A DNA stretch of 64,000 nt from Pyxidicoccus sp. MSG2 (lineage in GTDB: Bacteria; Myxococcota; Myxococcia; Myxococcales; Myxococcaceae): NCBI RefSeq assembly GCF_026626705.1, contig NZ_JAPNKC010000001.1, positions 12,587,001 to 12,651,000 on the forward strand, in the 5' to 3' direction. Of this stretch, positions 51,556 through 64,000 are shown one piece after another; the first letter of the stretch is position 1; the number at the start of each line of letters is the position of its first letter. Under the pieces are notes generated by a model, which worked only from the letters and a program-made list of their open reading frames with translations, was not told the origin of the DNA and did not search any database. The position numbers and the translations under genes were made by a program.

Positions 51556-52452
51556 TCACACCTCCGTCTCGCCCAGGCCGAGCTTTTTTCGCAGAGGGCC
51601 CATCCGCTCGCCCAGAGCGGCCTGGACCTCGGGCGTCAATACCGCGCGGCCGTCGCCCACCACGCCCTTGCGGATGAAGCCTGGCCTGGAGGCGCTCCGG
51701 TCGAAGAGCGGCAGCCGCACGTCAAAACGCTCATCGTGCTGCTTCATGAAAGCGAAGCCGCACTTCTCCAGGATGGCACCCATGCGGTCCTCTTCGAGGG
51801 TGACGTCCAGAAAGCGCGCCACCTTCCGGATGGCGCCCTCCAGGTCCGCGACCAGCTCCTCGTAGCGCAGGTGGAGGACGTTCGGGTCCGCGCGGTGCGG
51901 CCACCAGGACTCCAGGTGCCAGAACCACCGCTTCAGCAGGAAGTCCCGGCGGAGGAAGGGGACGTCGAGCTTGGGCCGGTAGCCCGTCTCCAGACAGACG
52001 TGGTTGTGGACCGAGACCAGCGAGTCCGCCGCGTTGCGGGTGACGTAGATGACGCGGCTGTCCATGGGCGGAGCCACCAGCCAGTAGGGCATGTGCGTCT
52101 TCAGGATGCGGGGGGACGGGAGCGCATCCAGCACTGCCTCCGTGAAGTCCCGAAGCATCAGTTGCTCCAGGTAGGGGGACACCTGGGACATGTGCTCGAA
52201 CTCGCCCCGGCCTCCCGTGAGGACCTGGTAGACGATCTGCTGCATCCACGTCGTGCCCGATTTCGGCGCAGTGGCCACGTAGATGTCTCCGGGCCGCGGC
52301 TTGAGCATCGCGTAGCGCAACCGGAACCACCGCAGCGCAACGGTTGCCAGGATCGTGGGGATGCTGAGGAGATTCACGAGGCCGAGCAGGATGCTCAGCG
52401 CCCCGTGGAGGGTACGCGGCCGACGGGACGCGTCAGTCCCCATGTCGTGCAT
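51556..52452 (-). CDS. PAPS-dependent sulfotransferase, cytosolic/eukaryotic type
   Basis: 298 residues. N-terminal hydrophobic stretch (~17-42) that may anchor it to the membrane. PAPS 5'-phosphosulfate loop T-A-P-K64-S-G-T-T-W; 3'-phosphate-binding 'VIYVTRNAADSLVS'; closing loop G-F-I-R-K-G-V-V-G-D. These three are hallmarks of the Sulfotransfer_1 family (eukaryotic SULT-like), which sulfates alcohols or amines. The acceptor is unknown. Divergent from the small Cys-rich peptide gene; convergent with DUF808 (85 bp, with a bulged hairpin around 51482-51513). Confidence 0.9.
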   Translation of the reverse strand: MHDMGTDASRRPRTLHGALSILLGLVNLLSIPTILATVALRWFRLRYAMLKPRPGDIYVATAPKSGTTWMQQIVYQVLTGGRGEFEHMSQVSPYLEQLMLRDFTEAVLDALPSPRILKTHMPYWLVAPPMDSRVIYVTRNAADSLVSVHNHVCLETGYRPKLDVPFLRRDFLLKRWFWHLESWWPHRADPNVLHLRYEELVADLEGAIRKVARFLDVTLEEDRMGAILEKCGFAFMKQHDERFDVRLPLFDRSASRPGFIRKGVVGDGRAVLTPEVQAALGERMGPLRKKLGLGETEV

Positions 52453-52507: not shown

Positions 52508-52592
52508 GAGACTGAGCCCGGGTTGACAGTCATTCCGACGAATCACTAGCGTCAATTCGCTTCACCCGAATTCAACGTCAGTGAGGATGACC

Positions 52593-52871
52593 ATGCAACT
52601 GCGGATCATGCTGGGCGGGCTGCTTGCAGCGGGACTGTTGTCGACGGGCTGTGGCGGAACCATGCCGGAGGAGATGGCGCCGGAGCAGAACCTCAGTGAA
52701 GCGGAGCAGGCGGTCTTCACCTGCCCCACCGGCTACACGCACGGCTCCTACTGGGACTGTGCCCAGGTCTGCGGTCTGGGGTGGGGCAACTTCCAGGTGC
52801 ACTACTGCTACAACGCGACGGACTACTACGAGATTGGCAATGGCCCGACGCGCTGTGGAGCGTGTTACTGA
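52593..52871 (+). CDS. Small Cys-rich lipoprotein, unknown function
   Basis: 92 residues from the ATG at 52593, with GAGG six bases upstream; ATG 52587 and GTG 52581 are alternatives too close to that site. Signal peptide with lipobox L-S-T-G-C (~18-22). Mature region has a Glu-rich start and a C-terminal block with Cys residues and many aromatics ('CPTGYTHGSYWDCAQVCG', 'HYCYNATDYY', 'RCGACY'). A short surface lipoprotein or secreted peptide. It precedes the M4 peptidase by 264 bp. Confidence 0.68.
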   Translation: MQLRIMLGGLLAAGLLSTGCGGTMPEEMAPEQNLSEAEQAVFTCPTGYTHGSYWDCAQVCGLGWGNFQVHYCYNATDYYEIGNGPTRCGACY

Positions 52872-53096: not shown

Positions 53097-53135
53097 GGCC
53101 GCGTTTCTCCCCCCGCCGTCTTGGAGTGCCGCCCT

Positions 53136-54680
53136 ATGAAGCGAATCCTGCCGACCGCCGTCGCAACGCTTGCGCTGTGGGGATGTGGTGATGCGAACGA
53201 CACGCCCGTGAATACGTCGCGTGAGCTGACGGATTCCGCCGAGCAGTCGGCCGTCGTCTCGCGCGCGATGGGCCTGGTGGCCAGGCAGGACGCCTCCGAG
53301 AAGCTGACGGCGCGCACGGTCATCGTGGACGACAACGGCTCCGAGCACGTGCGCTTCGACCGCTCGTTCGCGGGCCTGCGCGTGCTGGGCGGTGACCTGG
53401 TGGTGCACAACCCCGTGGGCCGCGCCTCCGAGGTGGAGTTCGCGACGCCGTCCACGCTGCGCGGGCTCTCCACGCTGCCCTTCTTCGACGCCGCGGCGGC
53501 GACGGTGCTGGCCGAGGCGGCCTTCGTCGGCCAGCGCAGCGGCCCGTCCAGCGCGGAGCTCATCGTCGACGCGCGGCCGGAGCGCGCTCCGGGGCTCGCG
53601 TACGAGGTGGTGCTCGAGGGCATCAAGCCGGACCAGACGCCCAGCGAGCTGCACGTGCTGGTGGACGCGCGCACCGGTGCGCTGCGCGGCTCGTGGGATG
53701 GCGTGCACACCGCCGCGGCCACCGGCTCCGGCCGGAGCCTCTACCTGGGGACGGTGAGCATTGGCACCAACTCCATCAGCAGCGGCTATGAGATGCGCGA
53801 TGTGACGCGGGGCACCGGCTTCTATACGGTCGATGCGGGCCGCAGCAACGCCATCTTCACCGACGCCGACAACGTCTGGGGCAACGGCACCAACAGCGAC
53901 CGCGCGAGCGCCGCGGTGGATGCGCACTTCGGCCAGAAGACGACGTACGACTACTACAAGAACGTGCACGGCCGGAACGGCATCGACGGCGCGGGCCGCA
54001 CCGGCTACAGCAAGGTGCACTACGGCACGGCCTACAACAACGCGTTCTGGACCGACTCCTGCTTCTGCATGACGTACGGCGACGGTGACGGCTCCACCTT
54101 CACCCCGCTCGTGGCGCTGGACGTGGCAGGCCATGAGATGACCCACGGCGTGACGAGCCGCACCGCGGGCCTCGTCTACTCGGGCGAGTCCGGCGGCCTC
54201 AACGAGGCCACCAGCGACATCTTCGGCTCGCTGGTGGAGTACTACGCCGCCAGCGCGGGCGACCCGGGCGACTTCCTCATCGGCGAGCGCATCTACACGC
54301 CCGGCACGGCTGGGGACGCGCTGCGCTACATGTACAAGCCCTCGCTCGATGGCAAGTCGAAGGACTGCTGGTACAGCGGCATCGGCTCCATCGACGTGCA
54401 CTACTCCAGCGGCGTGGCCAACCACTTCTTCTACCTGCTGGCGCAGGGTTCCGCCGCCAGCCCGGCGAGCCCCACCTGCAACGGCACGGCCGTCACCGGC
54501 ATCGGCCGCGACGCGGCGGGGAAGATCTGGTACCGCGCCCTCACCGTGTACTTCACGTCCTCCACCAACTACGCGGCGGCCCGCACGGGCACGCTGAAGG
54601 CGGCGACGGACCTCTACGGCGCCACCAGCACCCAGTACAAGGCCGTGGCCGCCGCCTGGTCCGCGGTCAGCGTGAACTGA
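53136..54680 (+). CDS. M4 (thermolysin-like) metallopeptidase, secreted or lipid-anchored
   Basis: 514 residues. Signal peptide with L-W-G-C (~17-20) so probably a lipoprotein or secreted enzyme. Residues ~25-200 form the FTP/PepSY-type propeptide ('RFDRSFAGLRVLGGDLVVH'). The catalytic domain has zinc ligands H333-E-M-T-H337 and Glu357 in 'GGLNEATSDIFG', and the C-terminal 'GIGSIDVHYSSGVANHFFY' carries the catalytic His of the M4 family. All active-site residues are present. Start has GGAG 11 bases upstream. A hairpin terminator follows. Confidence 0.95.
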   Translation: MKRILPTAVATLALWGCGDANDTPVNTSRELTDSAEQSAVVSRAMGLVARQDASEKLTARTVIVDDNGSEHVRFDRSFAGLRVLGGDLVVHNPVGRASEVEFATPSTLRGLSTLPFFDAAAATVLAEAAFVGQRSGPSSAELIVDARPERAPGLAYEVVLEGIKPDQTPSELHVLVDARTGALRGSWDGVHTAAATGSGRSLYLGTVSIGTNSISSGYEMRDVTRGTGFYTVDAGRSNAIFTDADNVWGNGTNSDRASAAVDAHFGQKTTYDYYKNVHGRNGIDGAGRTGYSKVHYGTAYNNAFWTDSCFCMTYGDGDGSTFTPLVALDVAGHEMTHGVTSRTAGLVYSGESGGLNEATSDIFGSLVEYYAASAGDPGDFLIGERIYTPGTAGDALRYMYKPSLDGKSKDCWYSGIGSIDVHYSSGVANHFFYLLAQGSAASPASPTCNGTAVTGIGRDAAGKIWYRALTVYFTSSTNYAAARTGTLKAATDLYGATSTQYKAVAAAWSAVSVN

Positions 54681-57637: not shown

Positions 57638-58300
57638 ATGACTCGCGGCATAACGGAGGGGACCTCGGAGCTGGTGGAGCGAGCGCTCGCCCGGGATGGC
57701 GAGGCGCTGCGCGCATTGGTGGATGCGCTCACCCCGGTCATCCAGGCCCGCGTGGCGCGAGCCCTGCTGCGCCGGGCCGCGTCCGCGAGCGGCCGGAACA
57801 TCCGTCAGGAGGTGGCGGACCTGACGCAGGACGTGTTCGCCGCCCTCTTCGCCGAGCAGGGCAAGGCGCTGCGGGCGTGGAAGCCCGAGCGAGGCCTGTC
57901 GCTGGCCAACTTCGTCGGCTTCGTCGCCGAGCGGCAGGTGGCCTCCATCCTCCGGACGACGCGCCGCAGTCCCTGGACGGAGGATCCCACGCTGATGGAG
58001 GAGCTCGACGCCCCCGAGGACTCCCCGAGCGTGGAGCTGCGGCTGGAGTCCCAGCAGATGCTGGAGGCCCTCCTGGACCGCCTGCGCGAGGAGCTCAGCC
58101 CGCTGGGCCTATCCCTCTTCGAGCTCATCTTCATCCAGCAGCGCACGGTGCCCGAGGTCTGCGAGCAGACGGGGATGAGCCGGGAGGCCGTCTACGCCTG
58201 GCAGAGCCGGCTGGGACGGCTGAGCCGCAAGCTCGGCGCGGAGCTCTTGTCAGATCCGCAAGCCCCGCCGCGAATACGCAAAGTGAGTGACACTCCATGA
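57638..58300 (+). CDS. RNA polymerase sigma factor (sigma-70 family, ECF-like)
   Basis: 220 residues. Region 2 at ~15-100 contains 'DLTQDVFAALFAEQGKALRAWKPERGLSLANFVGFVAERQV' (described over ~62-105) as in ECF factors; region 4 at ~145-205 has 'LGLSLFELIFIQQRTVPEVCEQTGMSREAVYAW', a helix-turn-helix (region ~150-185). The start at 57638 is the first ATG; an upstream in-frame extension is unsupported. Its stop overlaps the next start (ATGA). The promoters it recognises are unknown. Confidence 0.85.
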   Translation: MTRGITEGTSELVERALARDGEALRALVDALTPVIQARVARALLRRAASASGRNIRQEVADLTQDVFAALFAEQGKALRAWKPERGLSLANFVGFVAERQVASILRTTRRSPWTEDPTLMEELDAPEDSPSVELRLESQQMLEALLDRLREELSPLGLSLFELIFIQQRTVPEVCEQTGMSREAVYAWQSRLGRLSRKLGAELLSDPQAPPRIRKVSDTP

Positions 58301-59133
58301 GCGACAAACTTCTCCTCGAGCTGGGCCGCGTGGCGCGGGAGCGCCAGCGCGCCGAGTCGCGCGACGAGCGCTGGGAGTCACTCACGGAAGGGACGCTCTC
58401 GGAGGACGAGCGGCGGGAACTGGAGCGACTTGCCGCGGAGGACCCCTCCGCCGCGGAGGCCTACGAGGCCTTCCGTCCGCTGGATGCGGCCGCGCGGGAG
58501 CACATCGCCGCGCGCCTGGAGCGGGAGCTCGCGGAGGTGCCCGCCCTGGAAGCATTGCCTCCTGCCCCGGAAGCGCCGCCTTCCGTCCGGGAAGCACCTC
58601 CCACCCGCCTCGCCCCACCCGCCCGCGGACACCGCTGGCGGAGACTCGCGCCGGTGCTGGGCGCCGTGGCCGCCGCCGCCGCGGTCCTGCTGCTCGCCCT
58701 CCCCAGGGAGGCGCCACCGCTGCCGGGCTACACCCTGTCCGTCTCCAGCGAGCAGGCGGTGCGCGCGGGAGCGCCGGAGCCGGAGGTGCCACGCCTGGGT
58801 CCCGGCTCGCGGCTCGACGTACTCCTGCGCCCGGAGCAGGCGGTGGACGGGCCCGTGGAGGTGCGCGCCTTCCTCCTGCGGCCGGGCGAGGCGCGGGCCT
58901 GGACACCGCCCCTGGAGCGCTCTCCGGACGGCGCGGTGCGCATCCAGGGTCCGGTGGACGCGCTGCTCTCCCTCGCGCCGGGCGAGTGGACCCTGGCCAT
59001 CGCCGTGGGGCGCCCCGGGACGCTCCCGGAAGCACCGGACGAAGTGCTCGCCCGGGTCGAGGAGGGTCGCGCACCGGAGGCGGGCACCTGGAGGCTGCTC
59101 ACCCGGAAGTTCCTGCTCGTGGACCGCCCGTGA
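58297..59133 (+). CDS. Anti-sigma-like single-pass membrane protein
   Basis: 278 residues. Start overlaps the sigma-factor stop by four bases. N-terminal ~100 residues are Glu/Arg/Leu-rich and helical, as expected for a cytoplasmic sigma-binding segment, but without the zinc HxxxCxxC motif. A Pro-rich linker then a transmembrane helix at ~113-135 ('APVLGAVAAAAAVLLLAL'), and a periplasmic beta-rich domain of ~140 residues. The gene order and coupling to a sigma gene are the main argument for an anti-sigma role. Confidence 0.7.
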   Translation: MSDKLLLELGRVARERQRAESRDERWESLTEGTLSEDERRELERLAAEDPSAAEAYEAFRPLDAAAREHIAARLERELAEVPALEALPPAPEAPPSVREAPPTRLAPPARGHRWRRLAPVLGAVAAAAAVLLLALPREAPPLPGYTLSVSSEQAVRAGAPEPEVPRLGPGSRLDVLLRPEQAVDGPVEVRAFLLRPGEARAWTPPLERSPDGAVRIQGPVDALLSLAPGEWTLAIAVGRPGTLPEAPDEVLARVEEGRAPEAGTWRLLTRKFLLVDRP

Positions 59134-61877
59134 GACGTGCCGCGCTGCTGCTGGCCCTGGCGCTCGTGCTCACCAGCGGGGCCTGCCAGTGCCAGCGCCA
59201 GGCGCCCGCCGTGACTCCCCCACCCTCGCCGTCCCTGCGCGTCGGGTTCGCCGGCTGCGCCGCCGTCCTGGGCGGACCGGTGTGTGAGCTTCCCGGAGAC
59301 CGCCGCCTGCGACTCTGGGTGGAGCTTCCCGCGCGGATGCCGCTGACTGTCTCGGCGGGTGGTGCCCGACTTCCCGTGGAGGAGCAGGAGGCAGCAGGCG
59401 GGCGCGCCTGCACCTTCGTGGTGCCAACCGGAGCCACGGAGGTGGTGCTGGAGGTGACGCTGCCCGGCGGCCCGGCGGTGTGGCGACTGCCGGTGCGGGA
59501 GACGGAGCCGGTGCCCCTGCTCCAGCGCGCGACGGCGCTGCGCGCGGAGGGGAAGCCCGATGAGGCGGCGCGCCTGCTGCGCGAGGAGGCCCCGGCGCTC
59601 CCGGACGCCGCTCGCGTGCGGGCGAAGAGCCTCCTGGCTCGCGTCGAGCTGTCACTGGGCCATTCCGATGAGGCGGTCGCGCTGCTGAGGGAGACGCTGA
59701 CGCTCCACCGCCACGCGCAGCGACGCTCGGACGAGGCCAGCGACGCGATGGTCCTCGTCTATACGCTCATCCACCACGGGCGCCGCTTCACCGAGGCGCG
59801 CGAGGTGCTCGGAGCGCTGGGCCCCCTGGAGGAAAGCCATCCCGAGGGGAGCGCCCAGTTTGCCTATCACGAGGGGCTGCTGGCCCTCGAGTCGGGGGAC
59901 CCCGGCACCGCGCTCCGGCATTTCACCGAGGCTGCGCTGCTCGCGGAGCGGCTGGGCATCGGGCGCCTGCAACGGGCGGTGCGGCAGGTGATGGCGACGA
60001 CGCTCCAGTCCCTGGGCCGCGACGCCGAGTCCCTCGCACTGCTGGACGTGCTGCGTGCGGAGACAGGGGCCTCCGACTGTGAAAGGGCGGATCTGCTCAC
60101 CAACATCGGCTGGGGGCTGCTGCTCGCACGGGAGGCCGGTGGCGCACCCCGGGGGGAGCCGGTGCCTCCGCTGGAGGAGGCGCTCGCGCTCTACCGCGGG
60201 GTGTGTGCCAGTCCCGATGACGAGGCCAATGTCCTGGTGAACCTGGCGCTGGCGGAGCTGCATGCGGGGCGCGCCGGGGCCGCGGCGGCCCGGCTGCGGG
60301 AGGCCCGTCGCGCACGCCCCGAGCCGGGAGCACGCCTCGCCCTGTGGTGGCTGGACCTCGAGGGGCGCATCCTCCTGGAGGCGGGGCACGCGCGCCAGGC
60401 GCGGCACCACTTCGCGCGACTGGCCGAGCTGGCCGAGGCGTCGGCCTCCCCCGAGGCCCGCTGGCGCGCGGCGTTCGGCCGGGCCCGGGCCGCGGAGCAG
60501 CTCGGCGACGTGCGTGCGGCGCTTGCGACGTATGCCCAGGCCGAGGACCTGCTGGACGGCGAGGCCCTGCGAGTGCCGCTCATGGAGGGCCGGCATGTCT
60601 TCCTGCGCGAGCGCGAGCGCGGCAGCCGCGCGTACGTGGCGCTCGCGGTGAAGGCGGGACAGACGGCGGAGGCCCTGGAGGTGGCCCGGCGCGCGCGGGC
60701 ACGGGTGCTCGAGGCCGTGCGGCTGGCAGACCGGGTGACGCACCTGCCGGCGACAGCGCGCGCCCGATGGGACAATGCCCTCTCGGCCTACCGTCAGGAG
60801 CGCGAGGCGCTGGATGAAGAGGCCGCGCGGGACTGGCGGCTGGCCGCGGCCCGGCTCGCGGAGGTGCGCCAGGCCCGGCGGCTGCGCGAGGAGCGACTGC
60901 GAGCCCTTCTGGAGGAAGCGTTCTCCCTCCTGGCGCCGGCCTCCGCGGGGAGCCCCGCCCGGGGCGTACGCGCCCGCCCCGGCCCCGGTGAGCTCTGGCT
61001 CGTCTACTACCCGGCACCGCGAGGCTGGGTCGGCTTCGCGGCCGATGAACACCACGTGACGGCCCGCTTCCTCGAGCCCCTCGCTCCCGGCGCTCCACCC
61101 GCGACGCTGGCCGCCACCCTGCTGGAGCCCTTTCACGAGGCGCTTGCCGCGGCCAGGCGCGTCACCCTGGTTCCCTACGGAGTGCTTCGCGCCGTGGACT
61201 TCCACGCCCTGCCCTTCGAGGGGGACGCACTGGTCGCGGGGCGTCCGGTGGCCTATGCGCTGGACCTGGCGAGCCCGGAGCCAGCGCCGGACGGAGCCGA
61301 AGCTCCAGAGCGCACCGCGCTCATCGTCGCGGACCCCGAGGGCAACCTCCCCCAGGCGCGGGAGGAGGCGCGGCGCGTCCACGAGGCGCTGCGCGAGGAC
61401 TGGCGGGTCCAGGTGCTGTCGGGCCCCGCTGCGACGGGCTCCGGAGTTCGCGCCGCACTCGAGGGCGCGGAGCTCTTCCACTACGCGGGGCATGGGCGCT
61501 TCGCGGGGCTCGGCGGGTGGGAGAGCACGCTGCCCCTCCACGAGGGGCGACTGATGGTGGGGGACGTGCTGGCCCTGCGCCGCGTGCCCGCGTGGGTGGT
61601 GCTCTCCGGCTGTGAGACGGTTCGCGCGGCCCAGGACTCCCCGGTGGAAGGCCTGGGGCTGGCGCAGGCCTTCCTCGCCGCTGGCGCTCGGGGGGCCGTG
61701 GCCGCATGGCGCGAGGTGGACGACACGCACGCCATGGAGCTGATGCGGGCGCTCTACCGCCATGGCGGCCCCCGCACCTCCACCGAGCTGCCGGACGCGC
61801 TCCGCCGCGCCCAGCTCGAGCTTCGCGCCAGCCGGCCGGAGGCGGACTGGGCCGCCTTCCGTGCACTCGTTCCGTAG
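59130..61877 (+). CDS. TPR-CHAT (caspase-fold) protease with signal peptide
   Basis: 915 residues from a GTG overlapping the anti-sigma stop (GTGA). Residues 1-22 are a signal sequence ('MRRAALLLALALVLTSGAC'), with Cys20 a plausible lipidation site, so an exported protein. Then a Pro/Glu-containing beta domain (~25-115) and helical TPR-like repeats to ~570 ('RAEGKPDEAARLLREEAPALPD', 'AYHEGLLALESGDPGTALRHFTEAALLAERLG', noted as regions). The CHAT protease domain covers ~640-915; the catalytic dyad is His788 in Y-A-G-H-G and Cys828 in L-S-G-C-E-T. CHAT proteases are caspase relatives, usually cytoplasmic; a signal peptide is unusual. Confidence 0.9.
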   Translation: MRRAALLLALALVLTSGACQCQRQAPAVTPPPSPSLRVGFAGCAAVLGGPVCELPGDRRLRLWVELPARMPLTVSAGGARLPVEEQEAAGGRACTFVVPTGATEVVLEVTLPGGPAVWRLPVRETEPVPLLQRATALRAEGKPDEAARLLREEAPALPDAARVRAKSLLARVELSLGHSDEAVALLRETLTLHRHAQRRSDEASDAMVLVYTLIHHGRRFTEAREVLGALGPLEESHPEGSAQFAYHEGLLALESGDPGTALRHFTEAALLAERLGIGRLQRAVRQVMATTLQSLGRDAESLALLDVLRAETGASDCERADLLTNIGWGLLLAREAGGAPRGEPVPPLEEALALYRGVCASPDDEANVLVNLALAELHAGRAGAAAARLREARRARPEPGARLALWWLDLEGRILLEAGHARQARHHFARLAELAEASASPEARWRAAFGRARAAEQLGDVRAALATYAQAEDLLDGEALRVPLMEGRHVFLRERERGSRAYVALAVKAGQTAEALEVARRARARVLEAVRLADRVTHLPATARARWDNALSAYRQEREALDEEAARDWRLAAARLAEVRQARRLREERLRALLEEAFSLLAPASAGSPARGVRARPGPGELWLVYYPAPRGWVGFAADEHHVTARFLEPLAPGAPPATLAATLLEPFHEALAAARRVTLVPYGVLRAVDFHALPFEGDALVAGRPVAYALDLASPEPAPDGAEAPERTALIVADPEGNLPQAREEARRVHEALREDWRVQVLSGPAATGSGVRAALEGAELFHYAGHGRFAGLGGWESTLPLHEGRLMVGDVLALRRVPAWVVLSGCETVRAAQDSPVEGLGLAQAFLAAGARGAVAAWREVDDTHAMELMRALYRHGGPRTSTELPDALRRAQLELRASRPEADWAAFRALVP

Positions 61878-61902
61878 ACACACCCCACCGGGAGACCCTC
61901 AC

Positions 61903-64000
61903 ATGAAGCCCGTCCGCTTTCTGATTGCCAGCACCCTGGCCTGCGGAGTCATGGCCTGTACGCCCTCGGGAGCAGGTCCCGAAGAAGGAGGGAGCCCGCC
62001 CCTGGCGCGGCGGGAGCTCGGTCTGGATGCCGGCGCGCCGCCCTGCCCCACGAATGGGGGCACCTGCGTCCCCGTGTCGCCTCCCATCACCGAGGAGGCA
62101 GCCTGCCCGGGCAACCGATGGATTGCCGTCCTGGCGGAGGGCGTCGACAACTGTCCGCAGGGCTCTTCCGGCCTGGAAGGCCAGTGGGTCGGGGCGCGGC
62201 TGTTCGAGGCCTCGCGAGGCACGTGGTCCCTGCCCCCCGGGCTCGCGCCCTTCTGTTCGTACGACTGGGTGACGCCAGGGGGTGGCCTCCCCTCGCAGCA
62301 GGCGGTGGCGCAGCTGAAGTCGGGCCTGGGCGCGCGGGTCCTCCGGGTCGACCGCGACTGTCAGGTGGTGGCCCCCCTGGGCACGAGTGCCACCGCCAAG
62401 GCCGCGTGGCAGACGCTGCACAAGGACTTCCATGCGCAGACGGGACAGGTCGCGAGCCTCCCCCCGGGCGGGGTGCTTCCGCCCGCGGAGGTGCGCGTCG
62501 CGGTGGTGGACTCCGCGCCTCACGGCTACAGCGACGGCGAGGCGGTGGAGGACCGGCTCGGCCATGGTCATGCGATGGGCCGCGTGGTGCGTGAGCTGGG
62601 TTGTCCGGATGGAAGCCCGGTCTGCATTGCCCAGGTGGCCAACCACCTGGCGCTCCCACAGGTGACGCCGAACGTGAGGGACCTGGCGCATGGGGGCTAC
62701 TTCGGTGAGCAGACGCAGCTGGCGCGGTCCATCCACGCCGCGGTGACGGAGTGGCGCGGCCACAACGCGGGGCAGGTCCCCCCGGGAGAGACGGCGACGC
62801 CCCAGCCGCGCCTGGTCGTCAACCTCAGCCTCGCGTGGGACGGGCGCTACGGGGGCGCGTACAACGGCAACCTGGTGGAGCAACTGCCGGCGCCGGTGCG
62901 CGCGGTCCATGCCGCCATCACCCATGCCGTCTGCCGCGGGGCCCTGGTCATCGCCGCGGCGGGGAATGACCCTGGCGGACCGGATGCCGTCCAAGGCGCC
63001 ATGTTCCCCGCGTACTGGGAACAGAAGCCGGCACCCGCGCTCGCGCAATGCGAGCTCCTCGAGGACCCGGGCTATTCGGGGGCGGGCGCGTACCCTCCCC
63101 TTCCGCCCGCCGGGGCGACTGTCTATCGGCCCCTGGTCTACGCGGTGGGCGGAGTGCGGGGGGACGACGCGCCGCTGGCGAGCACCCGCCCCGGGGGGCG
63201 CCCTCGCCTGGCGGCACCCGGCGCGCACGCGCTGGCGACCGACGTCGACGCGTCCGGCAAGCTCGTGCCGACGGACATCCTCACGGGAACGTCCGTGTCC
63301 ACGGCGGTGGTGTCCGGACTCGTCGCCACCGTCTGGGGCTACCGGCCCGAGCTGTCCGGGCCCGAGCTGATGGAGCGGGTACGCCAGGCCTCGGTCGACC
63401 TGGGCACTCCCGCGGACTTCTGCCTGGGCGGAGCCCCCTGCCCATGGGCCGCCACGGACGTGCGCCGTGGCATCCGCCGCGTCTCGCTCTGCCAGGCACT
63501 GGTGCAGGCCTGTGCGGGAGGGCTGGGGCGCTGTCCGCCTTCCTCGAAGCTCCCCGCGTGCACCTCGCGTCCGGCATATGGCTCGCCGCTGCCGTCGCTG
63601 GACACGGTCGCCTGGAGCTCCATCGAGTCGAAGCTCACCCGCACCATTGACGGCTCGACGCTGAACGTCGCGCTGCCGCCGCTGCCCGTATGCCGTCAGA
63701 GCGCGCTGCGCTCCAGCCGCTGGAGCTACGACGAAACTGTCTGTCCATTCCGCCAGTACTACGGAATCCCGCTCCGGCCCTGGACGAACCCGCAGCCGAG
63801 CAAGAATCCCTGCACCTGCTGCCTGATGGAGGTCGACCCCGAGGAGGCCATCACCCCCACCGCGACGCTCTACATCAGCATCGATAGCGAGTATTCACCC
63901 CGCAGCCTGGACTCGCCCACCCTGCTGGTGAACGGCAGGTATGAGATAGACCTCTCCGGCCTGCTGGAGCTCGAGGGGGAGACCCAGCTCACCGCGGGTG
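61903..64000 (+). CDS. Subtilase (S8-type serine peptidase) lipoprotein, 3' end beyond window
   Basis: At least 699 residues; the frame stays open to the window end. GGGAGA lies eight bases before the ATG, 25 bp after the CHAT gene. Signal peptide with lipobox-like V-M-A-C (~16-19). The catalytic triad is readable: Asp203 in V-V-D-S-A, His221 in G-H-G-H-A-M-G, and Ser464 in G-T-S-V-S-T-A-V-V-S-G; the oxyanion Asn355 is in A-A-A-G-N-D. About 20 cysteines and a C-terminal beta-rich region complete the visible part. A secreted or surface serine protease in the sigma/CHAT operon. Confidence 0.85.
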   Translation, partial: MKPVRFLIASTLACGVMACTPSGAGPEEGGSPPLARRELGLDAGAPPCPTNGGTCVPVSPPITEEAACPGNRWIAVLAEGVDNCPQGSSGLEGQWVGARLFEASRGTWSLPPGLAPFCSYDWVTPGGGLPSQQAVAQLKSGLGARVLRVDRDCQVVAPLGTSATAKAAWQTLHKDFHAQTGQVASLPPGGVLPPAEVRVAVVDSAPHGYSDGEAVEDRLGHGHAMGRVVRELGCPDGSPVCIAQVANHLALPQVTPNVRDLAHGGYFGEQTQLARSIHAAVTEWRGHNAGQVPPGETATPQPRLVVNLSLAWDGRYGGAYNGNLVEQLPAPVRAVHAAITHAVCRGALVIAAAGNDPGGPDAVQGAMFPAYWEQKPAPALAQCELLEDPGYSGAGAYPPLPPAGATVYRPLVYAVGGVRGDDAPLASTRPGGRPRLAAPGAHALATDVDASGKLVPTDILTGTSVSTAVVSGLVATVWGYRPELSGPELMERVRQASVDLGTPADFCLGGAPCPWAATDVRRGIRRVSLCQALVQACAGGLGRCPPSSKLPACTSRPAYGSPLPSLDTVAWSSIESKLTRTIDGSTLNVALPPLPVCRQSALRSSRWSYDETVCPFRQYYGIPLRPWTNPQPSKNPCTCCLMEVDPEEAITPTATLYISIDSEYSPRSLDSPTLLVNGRYEIDLSGLLELEGETQLTAG

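Follow-up and report, generated by a model that had tools for sequence, protein, structure and literature searches.

A candidate proteolytic signalling module of a sigma factor, a probable anti-sigma factor, a TPR-CHAT protein and a subtilase in Pyxidicoccus and other Myxococcota

The stretch of DNA analyzed here, called the window, consists of 64,000 nucleotides from the genome of Pyxidicoccus sp. MSG2 (contig NZ_JAPNKC010000001.1, positions 12,587,001 to 12,651,000). At its end, four consecutive genes code for an extracytoplasmic function (ECF)-type sigma factor, a membrane protein that is likely to be the anti-sigma factor of the set, a protein with tetratricopeptide repeats and a CHAT domain (TPR-CHAT), and an S8 protease (subtilase). 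The set is a split variant of the DdvA-like sigma/anti-sigma systems of the myxobacteria, with a subtilase as an additional partner, and it is found in distant families of the phylum. We put the probability at about 0.5 that the four genes form one signalling module in which the sigma factor is released when one or both of the outer proteases, CHAT and S8, cut the outer domain of the anti-sigma factor.

Conservation of the gene set

A first-pass annotation of the window had placed four genes on one strand, with overlaps at ATGA and GTGA and a gap of 25 bp, and the coordinates agree with this description to the base. The genes for the sigma factor and the membrane protein share the ATGA overlap, those for the membrane protein and the CHAT protein share the GTGA overlap, and the gap between the CHAT and S8 genes spans positions 61878-61902. 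Close orthologs of the membrane protein (E <= 1e-5) and the CHAT protein (E <= 1e-30) were identified in the same five of the 96 genomes of the family. The four genes are located in a row in all five, with start codons that give identical boundaries, and the flanking genes vary among several of the five loci.

Outside this group of close relatives, the profile of the membrane protein matched 10 of the 195 genomes of the phylum, five of which were from outside the family. Eight loci from three of these genomes of distant families were scanned with four profiles, and all four protein families were present in five of them (L056, L057, L060, L061, and L062). The locus L059 contained the sigma factor, the membrane protein and the CHAT protein, L055 contained the sigma factor and the membrane protein up to the contig end, and in L058 the membrane protein was the sole match. 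The S8 gene is located on the opposite strand in L061, and the sigma/anti-sigma pair is placed opposite to the CHAT and S8 genes in L062.

A scan of named genomes for the sigma factor only, with a profile from an 11-member family alignment, also recovered the module. The 23 loci came from Pyxidicoccus caerfyrddinensis, Sandaracinus, Enhygromyxa salina, many Myxococcota, unclassified metagenome-assembled genomes (MAGs), and one genome labelled Acidobacteria. The membrane protein was encoded next to the sigma factor in 21 of the 23 loci, while the CHAT protein was present in the flank of 16 and the S8 protease in 13, including a weak match in L070 (E 0.0013). No CHAT gene was within reach in L065, L067, L075, L076, L077, L079, and L085, of which L067, L075, L076, and L077 are short contigs or contig ends. 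A whole-genome search for six of these seven loci identified a full-length CHAT protein of the family elsewhere in five (E 3.1e-109 or better). L067 is the L055 contig of genome G112, whose CHAT gene is located at L059, while L085 is a sigma factor match with an E-value of 2e-4 in Chloracidobacterium, the genome of which gives general CHAT matches only. The full set was also present on another Enhygromyxa contig (L147), three of the genes were found in L148 and three in L149, where the contig ends before the sigma factor gene, and L146, from the same MAG as L065, contained a CHAT gene alone in 18 kb. In the Enhygromyxa salina locus L147, two additional genes separate the anti-sigma gene of the module from its CHAT gene (L147:6697-8491).

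All loci were recounted with one threshold, and duplicates were merged by shared DNA (L063 with L027, L064 with L030, L067 with L055, L080 with L060, and L082 with L062). This gave 25 distinct loci, mostly from Myxococcota, with the sigma factor, the membrane protein and the CHAT protein on one contig, 19 of which also contain the S8 protease; a single MAG contributed several of the 25, and contig ends truncate genes in L062 and L081. The distant members of the set show 24-31% sequence identity, and the order and orientation of their genes are shuffled. When the genes of 22 loci were clustered, the four large families were these four, and otherwise there were three clusters of three loci each, one of which contained kinases; the counts are lower bounds, and the gene caller missed some members. 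The comparison of gene order across myxobacterial genomes, proposed in the first-pass annotation, thus shows that the set is conserved far beyond the strain in a shuffled order. The four proteins very likely function together.

Several MAGs contain more than one copy of the CHAT or sigma factor genes of the module, with seven CHAT matches, some of them fragments, in the MAG of L075. The module may therefore be amplified in some lineages.

Predicted properties of the four proteins

The sigma factor passed the cut-off of TIGR02937 narrowly (43.5 bits against 42.9), in line with its earlier description as ECF-like, and its Pfam matches to region 2 and region 4 were below the threshold. A conserved motif upstream of its gene matched the genome at a single site, which was the operon itself. 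A regulon could not be delineated with this promoter motif, which gave no second match in the genome, is weak and is absent from genome G041.

The membrane protein matched no Pfam family above the threshold. Its structural model (mean predicted local distance difference test score, pLDDT, of 81.4; predicted template modelling score, pTM, of 0.52) begins with five helices (residues 2-80), which are followed by a single membrane helix and, at residues 145-278, by an Ig-like sandwich, consistent with the single-pass protein with an outer domain described previously. The best matches to the outer domain in VIA were NPC2 (Z 9.4) and antibody domains, which represent a common fold; the fold searches with the model were filled by Ig-like domains and reached the outer domain only, not the head. 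With a helical head, one helix, an outer domain, and a sigma factor gene adjacent to it in 21 of the 23 loci, the modeled protein has the architecture of a class I membrane anti-sigma factor. Class I anti-sigma domains are described in PMC7406223 as having four helices, with or without zinc. Taken together, the membrane protein is likely the anti-sigma factor of the set. An origin of its head from a zinc finger was considered and set aside, as a profile comparison with the zf-HC2 heads of DdvA-type proteins was not significant. The lone hint in that direction is the membrane protein of the distant locus L059, which contains HxxxCxxC and a sub-threshold match to zf-HC2 (19.5 against 22.2 bits). 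In the outer domain, Arg156 is present in 29 of 30 aligned rows, including the close orthologs, with a gap in the remaining row, and is followed by Ala, Gly or Ser.

The CHAT domain (PF12770, E 1.3e-29, residues 659-910) is preceded by TPRs. The model (mean pLDDT 86.5, pTM 0.82) contains a beta domain at residues 38-124, a TPR solenoid at approximately 129-600 and the CHAT domain at approximately 620-915. The residues His788 and Cys828, named in the first-pass annotation together with a signal peptide, are invariant in the five close orthologs. The pair is retained in 26 of 27 distinct proteins with identities down to 24%, as counted from 10 of 10 rows, 16 of 17 rows (the row of L081 ends before the site) and the motifs in four later additions. 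The signal peptide-like stretch is followed by a lipobox with Cys19, which in the window protein was read from its alignment row and which is also present in four close orthologs. This lipobox makes it probable that the CHAT protein is a lipoprotein and not simply secreted. A cytoplasmic location, which the first-pass annotation had named as evidence against its model, is not what the export signal and lipobox of these five proteins predict.

The top-ranked structures for the CHAT model in Foldseek were Csx29 (8eey_B, E 5.7e-15), DdvA (8rw5, E 8.9e-15), and separase (9hma, E 3.4e-12). The corresponding comparisons in VIA gave Z-scores of 29.6 for 8eey_B, 27.6 for separase (7nj1_A), and 24.7 for DdvA (8rot_A), with long alignments and large root-mean-square deviations. 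The likeness to the TPR-CHAT protein of type III-E CRISPR suggested previously was thus borne out, with Csx29 as the best match. By its residues and its model, the CHAT protein is predicted to be a peptidase with a caspase-like clan CD fold and a catalytic His and Cys.

The S8 protein matched PF00082 with an E-value of 3.1e-9, and its Asp203, His221, Asn355, and Ser464 are invariant in the five close orthologs. The same four residues were retained in 15 of 15 distinct aligned proteins (8 of 8 and 9 of 9 rows) in an alignment that leaves out six partial or merged frames. A lipobox with Cys19 is present in the window protein and in four close orthologs, which agrees with its annotation as an S8 protease lipoprotein. 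Since both the CHAT and the S8 proteins carry predicted export signals, they should be located in the same compartment as the outer domain of the anti-sigma factor.

Features of the four-gene set in the window (positions are those of the window)
Feature	Position	Strand	Size and basis
ECF-type sigma factor gene	57638-58300	+	220 aa; TIGR02937
Single-pass membrane protein gene, probable anti-sigma factor	58297-59133	+	278 aa; model, adjoins sigma factor gene
Predicted membrane helix, residues 118-134	58648-58698	+	Model helix, hydrophobic segment in sequence
Codon of invariant Arg156 in outer domain, candidate cleavage site	58762-58764	+	Row alignment
TPR-CHAT gene, product predicted to be exported	59130-61877	+	915 aa, GTG start; PF12770
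S8 (subtilase) gene, product a predicted lipoprotein	61903-64128	+	741 aa; PF00082; last 128 bases past the window

Comparison with other CHAT-sigma systems

The window is not the only place in this genome where a CHAT gene follows a sigma factor gene. In 6 of the 18 CHAT loci of the genome, a sigma factor gene on the same strand was located upstream at a distance below 4.5 kb, while the maximum in 20,000 random placements was four, reached once. The binomial P-value of about 4e-8 is too optimistic, since four of these six CHAT loci are paralogs. The six loci show three layouts, namely that of the window, that of L037, and four fusions of a zf-HC2 domain, a membrane helix and TPR-CHAT.

The second layout (L037:5752-10486) consists of genes for a sigma factor, an anti-sigma factor, a small exported protein and an exported CHAT protein. 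Its anti-sigma factor had matches in 39 of the 96 genomes of the family, and all four genes were present in all 30 loci examined, for the CHAT gene as far as the flank reaches. The small exported protein, which belongs to no Pfam family, was found in each of these 30 loci. The outer domain of the L037-type anti-sigma factor is unrelated to that in the window and contains R145-G146 in 31 of 31 rows; the query accounts for two of these rows, so that they represent 30 distinct loci.

In the fusion layout, the sigma factor gene overlaps or abuts the zf-HC2-TPR-CHAT gene at all four loci. The fusion profile matched 66 of the 96 genomes, a number that includes relatives without the head. In 30 fusion loci, one per genome and mostly from the same genus, the sigma factor gene was directly upstream and the zinc motif was present in all 30, as were the CHAT His and Cys motifs. 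For one of the four fusions (L045), Pfam gives zf-HC2 and TPR without CHAT, a genome search gives CHAT at 50.6 bits, and its His and Cys align with those of the other three. DdvA of Myxococcus matched the fusion profile end to end (E 4.6e-240), and the fusion layout is therefore the DdvA family, which is already known. A related arrangement was observed at L041:3619-9895, where a sigma factor gene and a gene for a 487-aa zf-HC2-TPR protein without CHAT are located near a separate gene for a membrane-anchored CHAT protein; this looks like a split DdvA-type pair. At L163, L164, L166, L167, L172, L174, L176, L178, and L179 of the same genome, a zf-HC2 match is followed in frame by sequence that by eye resembles a Ser/Thr kinase, which would give this genome several kinases with a zinc-finger head.

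Among the closest known systems is DdvS/DdvA of Myxococcus xanthus (PDB 8rot, 8rw5, 8rlz), in which an ECF sigma factor and a membrane anti-sigma factor are also linked to a TPR-CHAT fold. DdvA resembles the CHAT protein of the window in structure and has the CHAT His and Cys in the aligned sequence. However, the zinc-finger-type head, the membrane helix and the TPR-CHAT part form one chain in DdvA, whereas head and TPR-CHAT are encoded by separate genes in the window, in its orthologs and in the distant loci. The window set also differs in its separate anti-sigma factor with an Ig-like domain, its predicted CHAT lipoprotein and its S8 protease; no search for S8 genes was made at the DdvA-type loci. 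DdvS was reported to be active once DdvA is inactivated, by a signal that was described as unknown in 2015 (PMC4374960). According to PMC12288465, an antiphage island under the control of DdvS comprises two cyclic-oligonucleotide systems and a type III-B CRISPR-Cas system.

The CASP/Craspase of type III-E CRISPR (Csx29, Csx30, CASP-sigma) shares with the window a TPR-CHAT protease and an inhibitor of an ECF-like sigma factor, which in the CASP system binds that factor. Csx29 is not known to carry an export signal, whereas the CHAT protein of the window and its four orthologs carry one; the membrane-spanning inhibitor and the S8 partner are further differences. Csx29 cuts Csx30, the inhibitor of CASP-sigma; as described in PMC10028731, the cleavage was shown and the relief of inhibition was proposed. 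In type III-E systems, the protease is activated by target RNA via Cas7-11. In the ECF54 group, with members for example in Geodermatophilus, genes for CHAT proteins and subtilases are conserved in the vicinity of the sigma factor gene, and proteolytic control without an anti-sigma factor was proposed for the group (PMC8999054). Compared by description only, the group differs from the window, where an apparent anti-sigma gene accompanies the CHAT and subtilase genes, and it has a carboxypeptidase as a neighbor (PMC8999054). Regulated proteolysis of RseA by DegS and of RsiW likewise involves a protease that cuts an anti-sigma factor and switches on a stress response, but the proteases named for RseA in PMC10028731 are DegS and RseP, with no CHAT protein among them.

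A link between CHAT proteins and sigma factors outside type III-E CRISPR is thus already known from the one-chain form of DdvA and from the neighbors of ECF54, while the split form appears to be new. The CRISPR-independent link proposed in the first-pass annotation stands as far as the conservation of the gene set is concerned, but not as a novelty. A literature search for CHAT with anti-sigma factors or Myxococcus returned only the CASP paper and the ECF review, and an earlier account of the split layout is possible.

No CRISPR-Cas families were identified among the neighbors of the operon (nine in Pfam and eight in PADLOC), and no genome-wide search for Cas7-11 was made. A role as a defense system was considered and set aside, as the PADLOC matches of the four proteins were weak and those of the neighbors were all to widespread domains. 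The neighbors belong to the families of a thermolysin-family protease, a sulfotransferase, a histidine kinase, a metallo-hydrolase, a sigma-54 activator and a YhgA-like transposase. The thermolysin-family (M4) metalloprotease, apparently exported and with a propeptide motif, is encoded about 3 kb upstream of the operon (53121-54680, + strand; PF02868, E 1.2e-54). Further upstream are genes for a protein with a sulfotransferase domain (51556-52452, - strand; PF00685, E 2.6e-44) and an open reading frame of 96 aa (52581-52871, + strand) that by eye is cysteine-rich and lipoprotein-like.

Proposed mechanism and alternatives

The gene set, its conservation, the predicted export signals, the predicted domain architecture and the intact active-site residues are observed. 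From here we infer that the anti-sigma factor binds the sigma factor and that the proteases are active, as well as the cleavage event, its position and its trigger. In the proposed mechanism, the cytoplasmic head of the anti-sigma factor would hold the sigma factor, while the separase/Csx29-like TPR-CHAT protease and the subtilase, both lipid-anchored, would sit outside together with the Ig-like domain. The TPR part or a partner would sense an envelope signal, upon which one or both proteases would cut the outer domain, possibly after Arg156 near the membrane, and further processing of the stub would set the sigma factor free. The device would work as DdvA with the TPR-CHAT part moved to a separate chain. 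That the TPR-CHAT part is naturally fused to an anti-sigma factor in DdvA argues that the two belong together. The simplest interpretation is regulated cleavage, and it is plausible that the anti-sigma factor is the protein that is cut.

Several observations weigh against this mechanism. In L058, the anti-sigma gene is followed by an unrelated gene, with no CHAT gene in the following 3.3 kb, and L065 has the sigma and anti-sigma genes with neither CHAT nor S8 in its 20 kb. No S8 gene was detected in six loci among the 25 (L059, L071, L073, L074, L081, and L148, some of which are short contigs), and the S8 match in L070 is limited to a short stretch. The CHAT gene is located on the opposite strand to the sigma factor gene in L062, L068, L069, L071, L073, L074, and L078, and is therefore not co-transcribed with it there. 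The head of the membrane protein showed no significant similarity to known anti-sigma heads (hhalign probabilities of 0.5% for the zf-HC2 heads and 6% for the second operon type), and a sequence search matched the protein to no solved anti-sigma factor. In the widest alignments, the lipobox is present in only 12 of 17 CHAT rows and 6 of 9 S8 rows.

The cut site is also affected. An invariant Arg in two unrelated outer domains, those of the window and of the L037 type, at first stood out as a possible cut site of CHAT, and gingipain R and separase are examples of clan CD proteases that cleave after Arg. However, in a control of 30 zf-HC2 loci from the same genome, six of about ten membrane anti-sigma-like proteins without CHAT had an Arg followed by Gly, Ser or Ala at most 30 residues past the helix (presence was counted), among them R-G-G in L171. 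This weakens the idea of Arg as a cut site specific to CHAT, which it may nevertheless be.

The CHAT and S8 proteins could instead be outputs, that is, exported proteases whose genes the sigma factor controls during, for example, predation or development; the anti-sigma factor would then be inactivated in another way. In the window, their genes lie downstream on the same strand and overlap or are close together, so that co-transcription with the sigma factor is likely; autoregulation is common among ECF sigma factors (PMC10028731), and the M4 metalloprotease gene is nearby. Yet the set stays together even where the CHAT gene is on the opposite strand, as in the seven loci above, or the S8 gene is, as in L061, L083, and L084. 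In the DdvA-type and second layouts, moreover, the CHAT part is fused to the anti-sigma factor or encoded close behind it, which an output would not need, and the motif upstream of the sigma factor, weak and absent from G041, had no second match in the genome. We regard this explanation as unlikely.

We judge it equally improbable that the CHAT protein is a non-cutting sensor, whose TPR and CHAT parts bind a ligand and the outer domain of the anti-sigma factor, while the S8 protease or a general site-1 protease makes the cut. The S8 protease, with its catalytic residues retained, is an obvious cutter, and DdvA combines the TPR-CHAT part and the anti-sigma head in a single chain, with an inactivating signal reported as unknown in 2015 (PMC4374960). 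But the retention of the CHAT His and Cys in distant homologs and in the DdvA-type proteins is unlike a decayed pseudo-enzyme, and the CHAT gene is kept in the six loci where no S8 gene was found. That the four genes are neighbors by descent or chance, with no common function, is hardly credible. The close version is confined to five genomes of the family, but the co-occurrence in distant families with a shuffled order, the absence of another widely recurring neighbor and the random-placement control all speak against it.

A more specific form of the cleavage mechanism, which we offer tentatively and consider doubtful as a whole, is a device equivalent to Craspase that works without CRISPR and at the outside of the cell. 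Here, the exported separase/Csx29-like protease, with the subtilase as a partner or for a second step, would sense an envelope or phage signal via its TPR arch, cut the Ig-like domain after the invariant Arg and free the sigma factor. If this is true, DdvA would represent the one-chain form of this device, and the myxobacteria would generally place sigma factors under caspase-like control, with a one-piece layout, a layout of three genes and a small exported protein, and a split layout with a subtilase. In the split form, the protease-like part can be removed or mutated with the anti-sigma factor untouched. Because the CHAT protein is separate from the anti-sigma chain, a role for a CHAT protease of the outer face in the control of sigma factors, outside type III-E CRISPR, would be directly testable.

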